Assembly: GCA_021648025.1 (NCBI GenBank) | Contig: JAKITO010000002.1 | Span: 62,001 to 126,000, forward strand | Length of the DNA stretch: 64,000 nt | Source of the DNA: Paracoccaceae bacterium | GTDB taxonomy: Bacteria; Pseudomonadota; Alphaproteobacteria; Rhodobacterales; Rhodobacteraceae | Direction: 5' to 3' | Notes under the pieces: generated by a model | The model's input: the letters and a program-made list of their open reading frames with translations, nothing else | Told to the model about the DNA's origin: nothing | Database searches by the model: none | Made by a program: the position numbers and the translations under genes | Part shown: positions 43,865 to 49,102 of the stretch, one piece after another | How positions within the stretch are numbered: position 1 is the first letter of the stretch | Layout of the letters: every line of letters begins with the position of its first letter

Positions 43865-44689
43865 TTAACGCGCGTCTGTGTGGCCTTGGCGTACGATGGT
43901 TTCCAAATGCACCGCCAGCGACTTGCGGCTTTCGAAACCTGCGACCTTGACGGGCGGGTGGTAAATCACTTCGACGTGGCCCTGTGCCCAGGTGGCAAGG
44001 GTTTTGATCAGATGTGGTGCCAGTTCCATGTCGCCCCACCAGCCGTAAAAGCGTTTGGATTGCCCTTTTGGGGGATGATAAAGCACCGTCACTGGCTGAA
44101 TATACATGTATTCGCGCAGAATTGGCGTGAAGAACGACGCAAAAAGCGTTGTTTTAAATGGCAAAACCCTAAGTCCATCTGACGATGTCCCTTCCGGAAA
44201 GAACAGCAATTTGTGGCCAGCCAGAAGGCGCTGTTCAAAGATATCATTATGCTCGCGCGCACGACGCGGGTTGCGTTCGATGAAAACGGTGCCGGTGGCC
44301 CGGGCCAGCCAGCCGATACCGGGCCAATTGGCGACCTCGGCTTTGGATACGAAATAGATGCGTTTGCGGGCGTTAAGCGCAAATATATCCAGCCATGACG
44401 AATGATTGGCCACCACAGCGCCGCGGTGTTGCATCAATTCACCCTTGGTTTCAAAGCGAATCATCAGGATGCGAAAGGCATTGCGACAGACAAATTGGGT
44501 GATGAACGGCGTCATGGGCCGGTGCAGGCCAAATACCGGCCGTTCGATCAGGCGGACCAGCAGCAGGATAATCAGCCCACCAAACACCAATGCACCAAGG
44601 GACAATCCGCGTATTGCCACCAAAAGCCAGCCGACCGGGGAAACCTTCAAGGCGTCGGGTGGGTTGTCACTTTCCCAGGTCGGGCTCAT
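43865..44689 (-). CDS. olsA: Lyso-ornithine lipid O-acyltransferase (PlsC family)
   Basis: OlsA acylates lyso-ornithine lipid; the PlsC fold also covers lysophosphatidate acyltransferases. The 274-residue protein has one N-terminal membrane helix (GLSLGALVFGGLIILLLVRLI), the HX4D motif NHSSWLDIF, ERNPRRAREHN and the FFPEGTSSDGLRVLPFKTTLF (EGT) motif. It overlaps olsB by four bases and reads in the same direction, which makes an ornithine-lipid role much likelier than a general PlsC. It makes phosphorus-free membrane lipid under phosphate limitation in many relatives. Confidence 0.83.
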   Translation of the reverse strand: MSPTWESDNPPDALKVSPVGWLLVAIRGLSLGALVFGGLIILLLVRLIERPVFGLHRPMTPFITQFVCRNAFRILMIRFETKGELMQHRGAVVANHSSWLDIFALNARKRIYFVSKAEVANWPGIGWLARATGTVFIERNPRRAREHNDIFEQRLLAGHKLLFFPEGTSSDGLRVLPFKTTLFASFFTPILREYMYIQPVTVLYHPPKGQSKRFYGWWGDMELAPHLIKTLATWAQGHVEVIYHPPVKVAGFESRKSLAVHLETIVRQGHTDAR

Positions 44690-45456
44690 GGCTGGCGGCC
44701 TTTGGCATAGATTTGCGCCTGGCGTCGGTTCATATCGCAGGTTTGCAGGATCAGGCAGACGTCAGTGGTGTTAAAGGCGTGATCGACATACGCCCCCTCG
44801 CCCACACTGCCACCCAGACGCAGATAGGCTTTGATCAGGGGCGGCATGGCTATCATGGCATTGCGCCGGTCAAGCGATTGCATCGGTGTCAGGTCCATCG
44901 GCTGAAAATGGTCAGCGCGGGCACGCACCCGCAACGCGGGCGGGGCAAGGTGGTTGTGATGCAGCAGGGATAGCGGGGCCGCGAGGGTTTGGGGATTGGT
45001 GCCATGAAAGCTGGCCACCCCAAACAGGATGTCGATCTGATGATCGGCTACATATCCGGCCAACCCACCCCAAAGGTGATACAGAGCTGTGGTGCCACGA
45101 AAATCCGGATGCAGACAGGACCGGCCCAGTTCAAGCAGAGGTTTATCGCAGTTGGTCAGTACACCCAGGTCATATTCAGATTCGGAATAAAACCCGCCAG
45201 CCCGGTCCGCCTGATCCGATCGCAACAGACGGTACACCCCGGCAAGTCGGCCTGATCTGGTGTCATGAACCAGCATGTGATCGGCGAAGGCGTCGAAGGC
45301 GTCCTGCTCTAACTCAACCGAATGATCCACCATCGCCCCCCCGGCCCCCAATTCCTGTACAAACACCTGATATCGCAGCTGTTGGGCACAGCGACGTTCT
45401 TCGGCAGTCGTGGCAAGGCTAACGCGAAAAGCAGGGAAAGCGGTTGTATCAGGCAT
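44686..45456 (-). CDS. olsB: Ornithine-acyl carrier protein N-acyltransferase OlsB
   Basis: OlsB transfers a 3-hydroxy-fatty acyl chain to the alpha-amino group of ornithine, the first step of ornithine lipid synthesis. The 256-residue GNAT-like (hemolysin-type) protein shows LRYQVFVQELGA, EQDAFDAFADHMLVHD, LLELGRSCLHPDFRG and FGVASFHGTNP, all typical for OlsB. It is coupled to olsA. A phosphate-starvation promoter was not found; the 214 bases upstream contain an inverted-repeat element. Confidence 0.87.
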   Translation of the reverse strand: MPDTTAFPAFRVSLATTAEERRCAQQLRYQVFVQELGAGGAMVDHSVELEQDAFDAFADHMLVHDTRSGRLAGVYRLLRSDQADRAGGFYSESEYDLGVLTNCDKPLLELGRSCLHPDFRGTTALYHLWGGLAGYVADHQIDILFGVASFHGTNPQTLAAPLSLLHHNHLAPPALRVRARADHFQPMDLTPMQSLDRRNAMIAMPPLIKAYLRLGGSVGEGAYVDHAFNTTDVCLILQTCDMNRRQAQIYAKGRQP

Positions 45457-45897: not shown

Positions 45898-46482
45898 ATG
45901 GGTGATAATAGCGTTAATCTGGCGTCTCTGATAGGGTCGCGCATTTGCCATGATCTGATCAGCCCGATTGGGGCAATTTCCAATGGGCTGGAATTGTTGG
46001 ACCTGACCGGCGGTGTGGAAGGGCCTGAGATGGAGTTGATTTCCGACAGTGTCGGCAACGCCGGCGCGCGCATTCAGTTCTTTCGCATCGCTTACGGGGC
46101 GGTGGGGCCGCAGATGATGGGCCATACCGAGGTGTCGGGGCTTTTGAATGATCTGAACCAAGGCGGGCGGATTTTGGTGCAATGGACCCCGCGTGAGGCA
46201 CAATCGCGGGCCGAGGTGCGGCTGGCGTTTCTGGCGTTGCAATGTCTGGAAACGGCGATGCCGTATGGCGGCGTGATTGAGATCTGCTCCTCGGGCGGGC
46301 ACTGGTCGGCCACCGGGACGGCCGATAAACTGAATGTCGATGAAAAGCTGTGGAAAATGGCAGGCGGGGTCGAGATTACCCCGTCGTTGGTTCAGTTCGC
46401 CCTGCTGCCAGTGGCGGCTGCGGATTTGGGACGTAAAGTGACGATGGATCATGACACCGGGACAATAACGCTGCGCTTTTGA
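45898..46482 (+). CDS. chpT: Histidine phosphotransferase ChpT
   Basis: ChpT relays phosphate from CckA to CtrA (and CpdR). The 194-residue protein has the phospho-accepting histidine H18 in SRICHDLISPIGAISNGLELL, the dimerisation helix pair, and a degenerate ATPase-like domain (LNQGGRILVQWTP...TPSLVQFALLPVAAADLGRKV). In roseobacters the pathway controls motility, gene transfer agents and related traits. GGGAG is seven bases before the ATG. Three GAGTT repeats (45871-45885) fill the short spacer to DUF3553. Confidence 0.87.
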   Translation: MGDNSVNLASLIGSRICHDLISPIGAISNGLELLDLTGGVEGPEMELISDSVGNAGARIQFFRIAYGAVGPQMMGHTEVSGLLNDLNQGGRILVQWTPREAQSRAEVRLAFLALQCLETAMPYGGVIEICSSGGHWSATGTADKLNVDEKLWKMAGGVEITPSLVQFALLPVAAADLGRKVTMDHDTGTITLRF

Positions 46483-46495
46483 ATGAACCGGACAC

Positions 46496-46987
46496 TTAGG
46501 GCTGTTCCGGTCGCCGTCTGGGCCAGCCTTGCTTTGGTGGGTTTTCCAACCGTTCGCCATACGCCTGGCGTTCTTCATCGCTCATTTGTTCGACCTGCGC
46601 CAGCCAGGCCAGTTGCAGCGACTGCCGCGCCAGATCCAACTCTGACCTATGGCTGTCCAGAACCACCGAAACCGCATCCGCATCAAACGGTGTGGCGCGA
46701 ATGGTGGCGCTGATGGCCTTAATCTGGCCGCGCCGTTGTTTGACATGACCACTGCGGGCCTGGCGCGAATATGACCGCAGCGCGCGGCGCTGCTCGTCCG
46801 GCAAGGCCCGGTAAAGCACGGCGCCGATGGACCTGGGCGGCGGGCGCATTCCATCCGGTCCGCCAAAGCGCATCATCGCGCCGCCGACCAGGCCGATGAC
46901 CAACAGGTTCAGCGCCAGCGACAGCGCCAGCAATATCCGCACCCATTTGGGTGTTTTGGACCTTGGTTGTTCATGTATTTCAGTCAT
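46496..46987 (-). CDS. CnrX/Spy-like periplasmic sensor protein with membrane anchor
   Basis: This 163-residue protein has an N-terminal membrane helix (ILLALSLALNLLVIGLVGGAMM, about 18-39) and a periplasmic helical domain with the features of periplasmic heavy-metal sensors of the CnrX/ZraP/Spy group (LYRALPDEQRRALRSY, then helices rich in Arg, Gln and Glu, and LENPP near the end). It probably senses periplasmic stress or metal and acts on the neighbouring anti-sigma protein. It directly follows the 120-residue gene (stop at 46988, start at 46987). No metal-binding His/Cys cluster is seen, so a metal is not certain. Confidence 0.72.
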   Translation of the reverse strand: MTEIHEQPRSKTPKWVRILLALSLALNLLVIGLVGGAMMRFGGPDGMRPPPRSIGAVLYRALPDEQRRALRSYSRQARSGHVKQRRGQIKAISATIRATPFDADAVSVVLDSHRSELDLARQSLQLAWLAQVEQMSDEERQAYGERLENPPKQGWPRRRPEQP

Positions 46988-47350
46988 TTACCCATCCTCT
47001 GACACAGCATCTGCCAATGCGCCCATACCCATCAAATCCAATTCCAACCCTTGCCCCATCACCAGTTGCACGGGGTCAGGCAGGAACGAAGGTGGTGCAA
47101 AGCCAATCCAGACACCAACGGCACCGGCGGTGACCAGACCGCCCAGTGTCGGCCAGCCGCCCAGCAGGTGCAGCAACTGCGCCCAGATGCCCGGAGGCAC
47201 ATTTGATTTTGCCTTGACCTCGGTTGCCTGAAACCCGGCTTGCACCAAATCGGCGTCCGCGTACATGCGTGCGCTTAAGCCCCCGGGCATCTCGGGGGCG
47301 CGCGCATTTGCCAAAAGCTGATCCAGTTCATTCATTTGCTTGTCAGTCAT
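46988..47350 (-). CDS. Probable membrane anti-sigma factor (CnrY-like position)
   Basis: No family is recognised by sequence. The 120-residue protein has a cytoplasmic N-terminus with several acidic and helical segments (MNELDQLLANARAPEMPGG), one membrane helix around LGGWPTLGGLVTAGAVGVWIGFAPPSF, and a short outer tail. Size, topology and place between a sigma factor and a CnrX-like sensor fit an anti-sigma factor. It overlaps the sigma gene by eight bases (start at 47350, sigma stop at 47343). Starts at 47356 and 47353 are alternatives (three ATG codons in a row); GGGG lies seven bases before the chosen one. Confidence 0.62.
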   Translation of the reverse strand: MTDKQMNELDQLLANARAPEMPGGLSARMYADADLVQAGFQATEVKAKSNVPPGIWAQLLHLLGGWPTLGGLVTAGAVGVWIGFAPPSFLPDPVQLVMGQGLELDLMGMGALADAVSEDG

Positions 47351-47942
47351 CATCATACCCCAATTCATCCCGTCGCCCGGCCAGAACTGCCACCAGTGCG
47401 CGTTTGCCGCGCGCTGTCAGACTCTCAACCGCCTCTACGTTTATGTCCATCACCGCGGCAATCTCAGGATTGGACATCTCTTGCAAATGGCGCAAGATCA
47501 CCGCCTGCCTTTGACGTTCGGGCAAGTGCATCAGTGCCGCCTGTAACGCATCTTTGCGGGCCGAATCCAACAGGCCGGCAACCACGCCAGCCCCCGGATC
47601 AACCGGTTCCGCCACATCATCAAGGGCCGCCATCCCGCCACTCGCCAGACTTTGGGCACGCCGCTGGATATCAACACACAGGTTCATCACCACCCGGGTC
47701 AACCAGGTCGAGACCTTGGCCCGCCCCGGCTGCCAATTCGGAGCCATGCGCCACAGGCGCAACATTGCCTCTTGCGCCACCTCTTGCGCTTCACCCCGGT
47801 TGCCCAACATCCGCAGTGCCGTGCCATAGGCACGCGGGCCCAGACGCCCGGTCAAATCGCGCGCCGCGGTTGGATCGCCATTGGCAAACAAAACCAGAAG
47901 TGCGTCATCAGAGGGGACCAGAGAGGCAGCCGGTTGGGTCAT
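47343..47942 (-). CDS. RNA polymerase sigma factor, ECF type
   Basis: This 199-residue sigma-70 family protein has region 2 (ALLVLFANGDPTAARDLTGRLGPRAYGTALRMLGNRGEAQEVAQEAMLRLWRMAPNW, given here as short parts: TALRMLGNRGEAQEVAQEAMLRLW) and region 4 with a helix-turn-helix (LPERQRQAVILRHLQEMSNPEIAAVMDINVEAVESLTARGKRAL, core NPEIAAVMDINVEAVES). It is an extracytoplasmic-function sigma factor. I start at the ATG at 47942 (MTQPAAS), as the upstream extension has no homology; MPDLRIPYV at 47969 is possible. It lies between the EF-hand gene and the anti-sigma gene. Its promoter target was not found. Confidence 0.85.
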   Translation of the reverse strand: MTQPAASLVPSDDALLVLFANGDPTAARDLTGRLGPRAYGTALRMLGNRGEAQEVAQEAMLRLWRMAPNWQPGRAKVSTWLTRVVMNLCVDIQRRAQSLASGGMAALDDVAEPVDPGAGVVAGLLDSARKDALQAALMHLPERQRQAVILRHLQEMSNPEIAAVMDINVEAVESLTARGKRALVAVLAGRRDELGYDDD

Positions 47943-47997
47943 CACATACGGTATCCGCAGGTCGGGCATCCAGAGGTTAAAGGGATGCCCGCCATGT

Positions 47998-48474
47998 TCA
48001 GTCCTCAGGCCCGTAGCCACCCAAGCGACCCTTGCCGCGCGTGCTGATCTTTGCTTTTGCCTGGTTGAATTCCTGTTCGGAAATCCCGCCAGAGCCGTCT
48101 TCGTCAAAGTGGGCGAACATCCGCCCGGCTTGACGTGGCCTGGGCATTTCATCGCGCGACAAGACACCGTCGCCATCTATGTCCAGGCGTTCGATCATGC
48201 CAGTGACCCGCTTGCCCACATGTTGCTGTGCCCTTGCGGTCAATTCTCCGGCGCTCAACACGCCATTGCCATCCGTATCGGTATTGTCAAAGCGGGCAGC
48301 ACCCATGGCCTGCAATTCAGGCTGGGTGATCTGGCCGTTGCCATCGGTGTCCAACGCTTCAAAACTGATATTCATTCCGGGCCCCTGAAGGCGTGGCCCA
48401 AAGGCGAACGCCGAAGTTGACGCGAATCCCAATGAGGCAACAAGCACCCCGGTGATGAAATAAGCCTTGTTCAT
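47998..48474 (-). CDS. Secreted protein with four EF-hand motifs
   Basis: This 158-residue protein has a signal peptide (KAYFITGVLVASLGFASTSAFA, cleavage about residue 24) and four canonical EF-hand loops: DTDGNGQITQPE (42-53), DTDGNGVLSAGE (66-77), DIDGDGVLSRDE (98-109) and DEDGSGGISEQE (124-135), each with Asp/Asn at positions 1, 3 and 5 and Glu at 12, so calcium binding in the periplasm is expected. AAAGGA nine bases before the ATG decides the start at 48474 over the ORF start at 48543. It is the first gene of the ECF cassette. Being in this operon, it may be part of the signal or a target; this is inference. Confidence 0.85.
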   Translation of the reverse strand: MNKAYFITGVLVASLGFASTSAFAFGPRLQGPGMNISFEALDTDGNGQITQPELQAMGAARFDNTDTDGNGVLSAGELTARAQQHVGKRVTGMIERLDIDGDGVLSRDEMPRPRQAGRMFAHFDEDGSGGISEQEFNQAKAKISTRGKGRLGGYGPED

Positions 48475-48700
48475 CTCAAACATTCCTTTGTCTGGTATGA
48501 TCGCCCATCTGGCGCCATTCATACCAATCAAACGCAAGGCCAAAAGGTTTCCGTCGCAATAAACGCAAAATAACGGCTCCAGAGGATTTGTGACATCGCG
48601 CCATTTGGCTGTACTTAACGGCGTTTGCCCCTTTCAAAGCGCCCTGTTTTCCTCCAGATAACGCAGAGGTAAAACGCGACTGCAACGACCGAGGCCAAAG

Positions 48701-49102
48701 ATGAGCGACATAAGCATGACCGGCCCCCAATCCGATGAACGCGAACTTTGGCCCGCTTTGGCCAAGGGCTGGCGTCGGAAATGCCCCAGCTGCGGTCAGG
48801 GCAAGTTGCTGCATTCCTATCTTAAAGTGAACGACACCTGTGCTGTGTGCGGACAGGAATTGCACCATCACCGCGCCGACGACGGGCCCGCCTATCTGAC
48901 CATCCTGATCGTCGGCCACATCATGGCTCCGGCGCTTTTGATTGCGTTCAAGGTATTTCGCCCCGAACCTTTGGTGCTGTTCAGCATCTTTGCGGTTGGC
49001 TGCATCGCTTTGTCGCTTTACCTTCTGCCCAGACTGAAAGGTGCGGTGGTCGGATTTCAATGGGCCCGCCGCATGGATGGGTTCGACGATACGATTCGCT
49101 AA
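48701..49102 (+). CDS. DUF983 zinc-ribbon membrane protein
   Basis: This 133-residue protein matches DUF983, found in alphaproteobacteria: a zinc ribbon with two CxxC pairs (CPSCGQGKLLHSY and CAVCGQELHHH), two membrane helices (YLTILIVGHIMAPALLIAF and LFSIFAVGCIALSLYLLP) and a conserved tail RLKGAVVGFQWARRM. Function is unknown. GAGG six bases before the ATG supports it. It is followed after 12 bases by a NUDIX gene and may share its transcript. It is divergent from the EF-hand gene across 226 bases. Confidence 0.87.
   Translation: MSDISMTGPQSDERELWPALAKGWRRKCPSCGQGKLLHSYLKVNDTCAVCGQELHHHRADDGPAYLTILIVGHIMAPALLIAFKVFRPEPLVLFSIFAVGCIALSLYLLPRLKGAVVGFQWARRMDGFDDTIR

Follow-up and report, generated by a model that had tools for sequence, protein, structure and literature searches.

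Several described systems bear on a four-gene module in the DNA analysed here, a window of 64,000 nucleotides from a Paracoccaceae bacterium (contig JAKITO010000002.1, positions 62,001 to 126,000), which encodes side by side an EF-hand protein, an extracytoplasmic function (ECF) sigma factor, a small transmembrane (TM) protein and a PF13801 protein. In CnrYXH of Cupriavidus metallidurans, the genes of an ECF sigma factor, a small membrane protein and a periplasmic protein of the PF13801 fold are likewise adjacent, in an order that we take to differ from that of the window, and the ligands of CnrX-type sensors are His, Met and Glu. CpxP and Spy of Escherichia coli are the closest solved relatives of the PF13801 protein by profile, whereas the window protein is membrane-tethered and encoded beside an ECF sigma factor; Cpx is a two-component system. 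The sigma-E/RseA pathway also has a membrane protein encoded beside its ECF sigma factor, and the PF13801 protein presumably sits where RseB would in that pathway, but the window TM protein matches no known anti-sigma domain. The fourth system is CaBP-SigV of Caulobacter vibrioides (PMC13171946, 2026), in which the gene of a periplasmic EF-hand protein lies directly upstream of an ECF sigma gene. According to that study, calcium limitation (EGTA) and acid induce cabp and sigV, with SigV activating cabp. Mapping by 5'RACE gave a cabp promoter in which a 13-nt spacer separates GGAAA from CGTTCA; cabp and sigV are reported as separate transcripts, and a question mark stands for the membrane component. 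The window module is closest to Cnr in layout and to CaBP-SigV among known circuits, and its function is likely nearer to Cpx or sigma-E. We consider it probable that it is an ECF envelope-stress pathway with a Cnr-like layout and not a metal-resistance system, and that the EF-hand protein is its output; the TM and PF13801 proteins are candidates for the membrane link of the CaBP-SigV circuit.

The four minus-strand open reading frames (ORFs) at 46496-48474, which an earlier note on this DNA had described, were confirmed in coordinates and protein kinds (Table 1), as were its four perfect EF loops, all of them strict, and the tight packing of the last three genes, in which the sigma/TM overlap is followed by a TM stop codon abutting the PF13801 start (TAAATG). 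The sigma factor carries Pfam regions 2 and 4 and exceeds the cut-off of NCBIfam NF009176 (PRK12524). Conservation of the neighbourhood was surveyed twice. The PF13801 protein was searched in 61 genomes, 37 of them from the organism's own family, which we take to be Rhodobacteraceae, and 35 matched, including 30 of the own-family genomes; an ORF with at least two EF loops was found in 27 of the 30 loci from this search. The second survey ran NF009176 over 240 genomes of the class and yielded 30 loci, to which 40 further group members and, as controls, 20 lower-scoring ECF sigma factors were added, and synteny was scored with profiles built from the first 30 loci. In the own family, an EF-hand gene neighbours the sigma gene at 28 of 30 loci, or 29 of 30 with the extended locus L146: the miss at L021 was due to a short locus, and its EF-hand gene comes into view in L146, co-oriented with the sigma gene and with its end 127 nt upstream of the open sigma frame. 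The other miss, L007, was kept as such; it has TM and PF13801 genes but lacks an EF-hand gene and matches sigma only in part (80 bits), through either a rearrangement or an assembly fault. L002 was left out, as its contig ends before the sigma gene.

Because the PF13801 gene served to fetch the own-family loci L001-L029, so that its presence at 30/30 holds by construction for 28 of them, the fair test for this gene is the set fetched by sigma. Among the 67 other-family loci of that set (68 rows less one locus entered as both L030 and L081), the PF13801 gene follows the sigma gene in 60 and an EF-hand gene precedes it in 34, compared with 0/20 and 1/20 for the control sigma factors (Fisher p 2.9e-14 and 1.6e-4, respectively, computed on the 68 other-family rows including the duplicate). 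Conservation of the EF-hand gene beside the sigma gene in relatives, the first of the two tests that the earlier note had set beforehand, was thus borne out. The TM-protein profile matched an ORF in 21 of the 67 other-family loci and in none of the 20 controls at E 0.01, most matches being weak, and a crude hydropathy filter placed a TM frame directly after the sigma gene in 17/30 own-family loci, 48/68 others and 4/20 controls. Since the PF13801 gene stays in 60 of the 67 loci while the EF-hand neighbour is found in only 34, the core of the module seems to consist of the sigma factor, the TM protein and the PF13801 protein, and the EF-hand protein looks like a near-constant partner in the own family that is optional, and output-like, elsewhere.

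The EF-hand gene is preceded by an ECF-type promoter element in the window, whose extended form, GCGACGGAAA-N13-CGTTTGA, lies at 48557-48528. Its GGAAA-N13-CGTT part (48552-48531) has the geometry of the mapped Caulobacter cabp promoter and in both organisms stands upstream of the EF-hand gene; moreover, the 5' primer used for cabp ends in GCGACGGA, which fits the extended motif and is presumably contiguous with the mapped -35 (PMC13171946). Across relatives, 21 of the 29 upstream regions from the own family carry GGAA-N14-CGT[TA], compared with a mean of 0.11 in shuffles and 0-1 at any other spacing from 9 to 21; in the 37 upstream regions from other families, N14 and N15 account for 5 each (shuffle means about 0.1). 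When any base was allowed after CGT, the own-family count rose to 25/29, and CGAC precedes GGAA in 24 of those 25. The strict motif (N14 or N15) occurs within 1300 nt upstream of the sigma gene in 18 of the 67 other-family loci, with 0 on the opposite strand and 0/20 in controls, and four loci without an EF-hand gene (L034, L048, L050 and L065) carry it 62-183 nt before the sigma gene itself. In the own genome, which is 91% complete, CGACGGAA-N-CGT has one match at the N14 spacing, that before the EF-hand gene. The own-genome N13/N15 sites L148, L149 and L151 were dropped as chance, as enrichment is confined to N14, and none of five one-mismatch own-genome sites (L243-L247) precedes a recognised target, L246 lying before a short frame. 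From these patterns we infer that the window sigma factor reads a GCGACGGAA-N14-CGTT promoter. Its likeness to SigV lies in gene order and promoter.

The motif was then followed to other genes. Across 37 genomes, GCGACGGAA-Nk-CGTT gave 120 matches, 46 of them at k=14 and 2-19 at each other k from 10 to 18, and at N14 alone the pattern outnumbered its reversed form by 90 to 31 in 25 own-family genomes. Sixty of these 90 sites were examined, first 20 that looked promising, including two EF-hand promoters, and then 40 more; the remaining 30 comprised 15 EF-hand/sigma promoters and 15 that were left out, nine of them in one genome (G007). Clustering of the downstream proteins at the 60 sites returned a resistance-nodulation-division (RND) adaptor at 10, a second secreted EF-hand protein at 4, RpoH at 4 and cytochrome b561 at 3, with two further b561-like loci (L209 and L215) recognised by eye; four clusters had two members each, comprising DUF1800, two small membrane families and the EF-hand gene as found in two same-genus genomes, and the 31 sites without a recurrent gene may be chance. 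For each main target type, one example was identified by family search. The second secreted EF-hand family is unlinked to the module (L188, L196, L204 and L232). The rpoH-like (sigma-32) genes, one of the four identified by family search, stand at L189, L200, L227 and L231; their position suggests a cascade from the module sigma to the heat-shock sigma, and rpoH behind the module promoter in four related genomes is a further likeness to the sigma-E/RseA pathway. In the own genome, genes for an RND adaptor and a multidrug-like pump were found at G000:C32:30233-31800. The adaptor shares 91% identity with its counterpart in a same-genus genome. The two leaders are very similar, and the own-genome adaptor keeps the site at the same place, 98 nt before its start, with two mismatches, compared with no mismatch at the same-genus site (L184). 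Scores for the pump fragment of the own genome (496 aa), all of them under the cut-offs, were 238.6 and 173.7 bits with the multidrug/HAE1 models versus 104.3 bits with CusA/CzcA (TIGR00914), so that by these scores this pump is nearer to the multidrug than to the CusA/CzcA models.

The PF13801 protein matches Metal_resist above the cut-off of 29.2 bits, its anchor has a peak hydropathy of 2.44, and the module gene is the single PF13801 match in the own genome. When a profile of 29 PF13801 proteins was compared with proteins of solved structure, Spy scored best (E 1.2e-4), followed by CpxP (0.0066), NccX (0.012) and CnrX (0.29). No His or Cys column reaches 30% in either 31 or 93 aligned PF13801 proteins, the larger alignment holding the window protein and the locus L030/L081 twice; one internal Met column exceeds that level (26/31 and 38/93). 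The ligand-column comparison covered His, Cys and Met. As judged from these profiles and alignments, the protein belongs to the CnrX fold group without the conserved His/Cys ligands that a CnrX-type metal sensor would need, and it resembles Spy and CpxP more than CnrX. The earlier note's CnrX-like sensor therefore stands as a matter of fold group and not of ligands or nearest relative, and the protein is a candidate periplasmic sensor.

The 121-aa TM protein has a sole hydrophobic stretch, with a peak hydropathy of 1.52 over 19 residues. It matched no Pfam family, and its best NCBIfam match was at E 0.1. It does not show the marks of class I or zinc anti-sigma factors: no known anti-sigma domain was found, and HxxxCxxC is impossible in the window protein, which has no Cys and one His. 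From its position, overlap and topology, it is a candidate anti-sigma factor of the neighbouring sigma factor. For the EF-hand protein, a signal peptide was recognised by eye (...SAFA/F), and its periplasmic placement rests on that reading; the shuffled mature part gave at most 1 strict loop in each of 20,000 trials, compared with the four real ones. A second EF-hand relative in the own genome is weak (E 3e-5). AlphaFold single-sequence models were poor, with a mean pLDDT of 55 for the PF13801 protein and 43 for the EF-hand protein.

The earlier note had taken the four genes as one minus-strand unit, which holds for the tightly joined sigma, TM and PF13801 genes; the EF-hand gene is set apart by 55 nt holding a strong stem-loop and may be on a transcript of its own. 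In the own-family gaps, a perfect stem of at least 8 bp follows the EF-hand stop codon in 15/28 loci (shuffle mean 1.39), with differing sequences, compared with 3/28 in a control inside the sigma gene. In addition, a housekeeping-like second promoter of the form TTGC...CTAG was found before the sigma gene in 10 of 28 own-family loci (shuffle mean 1.27), by a pattern written after viewing the same sequences, and no such element occurs at the window locus. The stem-loop together with the second promoter-like element weakens the simple one-operon reading, and the latter agrees with the separate transcription reported in Caulobacter, where the sigV promoter lies inside cabp and has a different -35 (PMC13171946). 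The window stem-loop, with no T-tract after it, may be a terminator, a processing site or a stabiliser.

Collectively, these features are compatible with the following course of events. At rest, the small TM protein would hold the sigma factor at the inner membrane, and the PF13801 protein, as a membrane-tethered Spy/CpxP-like helical domain, would report the state of the periplasm to it. Under stress, the TM/PF13801 pair would release the sigma factor, which would then read the promoter before the EF-hand gene and, in relatives, those of the RND adaptor/pump, rpoH, b561 and second EF-hand genes. The EF-hand protein most likely serves as an output, binding or buffering calcium when the envelope is stressed, with possible feedback, and the stem-loop after its stop codon may allow its production independently of the sigma/TM/PF13801 unit. 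For the membrane link of the Caulobacter CaBP-SigV circuit, the TM and PF13801 proteins would be candidates. Since the EF-hand/sigma pair of Caulobacter is EGTA-responsive (PMC13171946), a link of the window module to calcium is plausible. The earlier note's proposal that calcium is the signal, or is buffered by the EF-hand protein, is accordingly retained in part, the protein looking more like a target than an obligate sensor.

A true Cnr-type heavy-metal system, in which His/Met ligands of the PF13801 protein would hold a transition metal and metal efflux would be switched on by the sigma factor, shares its protein types with the module, and the family name Metal_resist, the presence of NccX and CnrX among the profile matches and the RND adaptor behind the promoter in 10 related loci, itself a likeness to CnrYXH, would all suit it. 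However, the metal reading is weakened by the lack of a conserved His/Cys column (one internal Met column does reach 30%), by the closer match to Spy and CpxP than to NccX and CnrX and by a pump nearer to the multidrug type, and the other recurrent promoter targets are rpoH and b561 cytochromes. The module further differs from CnrYXH in its added EF-hand protein and in a TM-protein profile that does not match CnrY in the PDB. On the ligand and pump evidence, membership in the Cnr heavy-metal group was rejected, and we regard such a system as very unlikely here; of the Cnr-like system proposed by the earlier note, the layout of sigma factor, small TM protein and PF13801 protein remains. A lanthanide system, with the EF-hand protein as a lanmodulin relative and a rare-earth ion as the signal, would account for a sub-threshold match to LanM (NF053806, 42.3 bits), the periplasmic placement, the four loops and an EF1-EF2 spacing of 12 residues, LanM having, as we assume, a similarly short one. 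But that score is far under the 135-bit cut-off, proline at loop position 2 was found in none of 102 loops in 28 EF-hand proteins, and no lanthanide genes were seen among the recurrent promoter targets. One LanM itself has T and K, and thus no proline, at position 2 of the first two of its four loops (PMC9260416). On the score and the prolines, lanmodulin membership was rejected, and a rare-earth signal seems barely credible.

It is also conceivable that the EF-hand protein is the primary sensor, which free calcium of the periplasm would load and whose calcium-free or calcium-loaded form would act on the TM/PF13801 pair to control the sigma factor. The tight own-family linkage (29/30 loci) speaks for this, as do the induction of the Caulobacter pair by calcium limitation and the rise of sigV expression on CaBP overexpression (PMC13171946). 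The EF-hand gene is, however, absent beside about half of the other-family sigma loci while PF13801 stays, and in four genomes the module promoter also precedes a second, unlinked EF-hand gene, as would be expected if EF-hand proteins are outputs. Caulobacter cells lacking cabp show only a slight drop in sigV expression and still induce the cabp promoter in acid (PMC13171946). We therefore hold a sensing EF-hand protein to be unlikely. Several observations weigh against the envelope-stress pathway with an EF-hand output that we prefer. Seven of the 37 own-family genomes, three of them 97-100% complete, have no PF13801 match, and the EF-hand gene is optional outside the own family. With all spacings pooled, the promoter pattern gives 120 matches versus 104 for the reversed control, with no clear overall excess, and at N14 alone 18 versus 19 in 16 other genomes; judged by these counts and by spacing, only N14 shows an excess and, with a pattern this strict, only in the own family. 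The own genome has a single N14 site. At the two-mismatch level it has 106 places versus 220 for the reversed pattern, so the own-genome adaptor site, which is decayed, counts by its position and not by its match alone. Assignment of the motif to this sigma factor and not to another ECF sigma factor rests on co-occurrence. For the TM protein, whose hydrophobic stretch is only moderate, no Pfam anti-sigma family matched at E 0.1 among 26 members, and a profile of these 26 matched no PDB chain, CnrY included, below E 0.4. Of the Caulobacter counterpart, a PF13801 protein somewhere in C. vibrioides is established, and the part of the source covered names no TM anti-sigma or PF13801 partner and describes a CaBP with three EF-hands versus four in the window protein (PMC13171946). 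The effect of CaBP overexpression and a reported SigT input likewise leave room for a sensing role and for another sigma factor (PMC13171946).

Table 1. Coordinates of the module features in the window.
Feature	Position	Strand	Remark
ECF-type promoter GCGACGGAA-N14-CGTT (= GGAAA-N13-CGTT)	48531..48557	-	56 nt from CGTT to EF-hand ATG
Secreted EF-hand protein, 158 aa, four canonical loops	47998..48474	-	Loop count and conserved neighbour in 29/30 own-family loci
Stem-loop, EF-hand stop to sigma start	47963..47991	-	9-bp perfect stem, no T-tract; z -3.93
ECF sigma factor NF009176	about 47343..47942	-	288.7 bits, cut-off 264; alternative start GTG at 47945
121-aa TM protein, candidate anti-sigma factor	46988..47353	-	One moderate TM stretch; 11-nt overlap with sigma
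Membrane-anchored PF13801 protein, candidate periplasmic sensor, Spy/CpxP/NccX/CnrX group	46496..46987	-	PF13801 57.9 bits

Around the module, no Rfam family was matched up to E 0.1 in 46300-48900. Just downstream of the PF13801 gene, a convergent gene at 45898-46482 on the plus strand encodes a protein with a PF10090 histidine phosphotransferase C-terminal domain, which we take to be ChpT-like, and a minus-strand pair at 43865-45456 encodes a GNAT acetyltransferase (PF13444) and an acyltransferase (PF01553), presumably resembling the ornithine-lipid olsBA pair. Among the literature matches listed, titles and abstract openings do not describe the four-gene module; the ECF classification (doi 10.1093/nar/gkaa1229) may tabulate this gene neighbourhood.

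The interpretation of the earlier note is thus partly supported, and the reading of the locus shifts away from metal resistance and towards the integrity of the envelope, where calcium has a stabilising effect on the outer membrane. The common promoter gives a testable regulon of EF-hand proteins, RND pump, rpoH and b561, and the conserved gene order names two concrete candidates for the membrane component of the Caulobacter loop (PMC13171946). It is possible, although we lean slightly against it, that the module represents an envelope-stress pathway which is widespread in alphaproteobacteria and separate from RpoE/ChrR, EcfG and Cpx. Such a pathway would combine a membrane-tethered Spy/CpxP-like sensor, a new type of small membrane anti-sigma factor and a promoter class of its own; its regulon would link periplasmic calcium-binding EF-hand proteins with rpoH, b561 cytochromes and an RND pump of the multidrug type, and it would supply the membrane link of CaBP-SigV. 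If this is true, envelope stress in many alphaproteobacteria would be handled by a dedicated pathway that has calcium-binding proteins among its main products.

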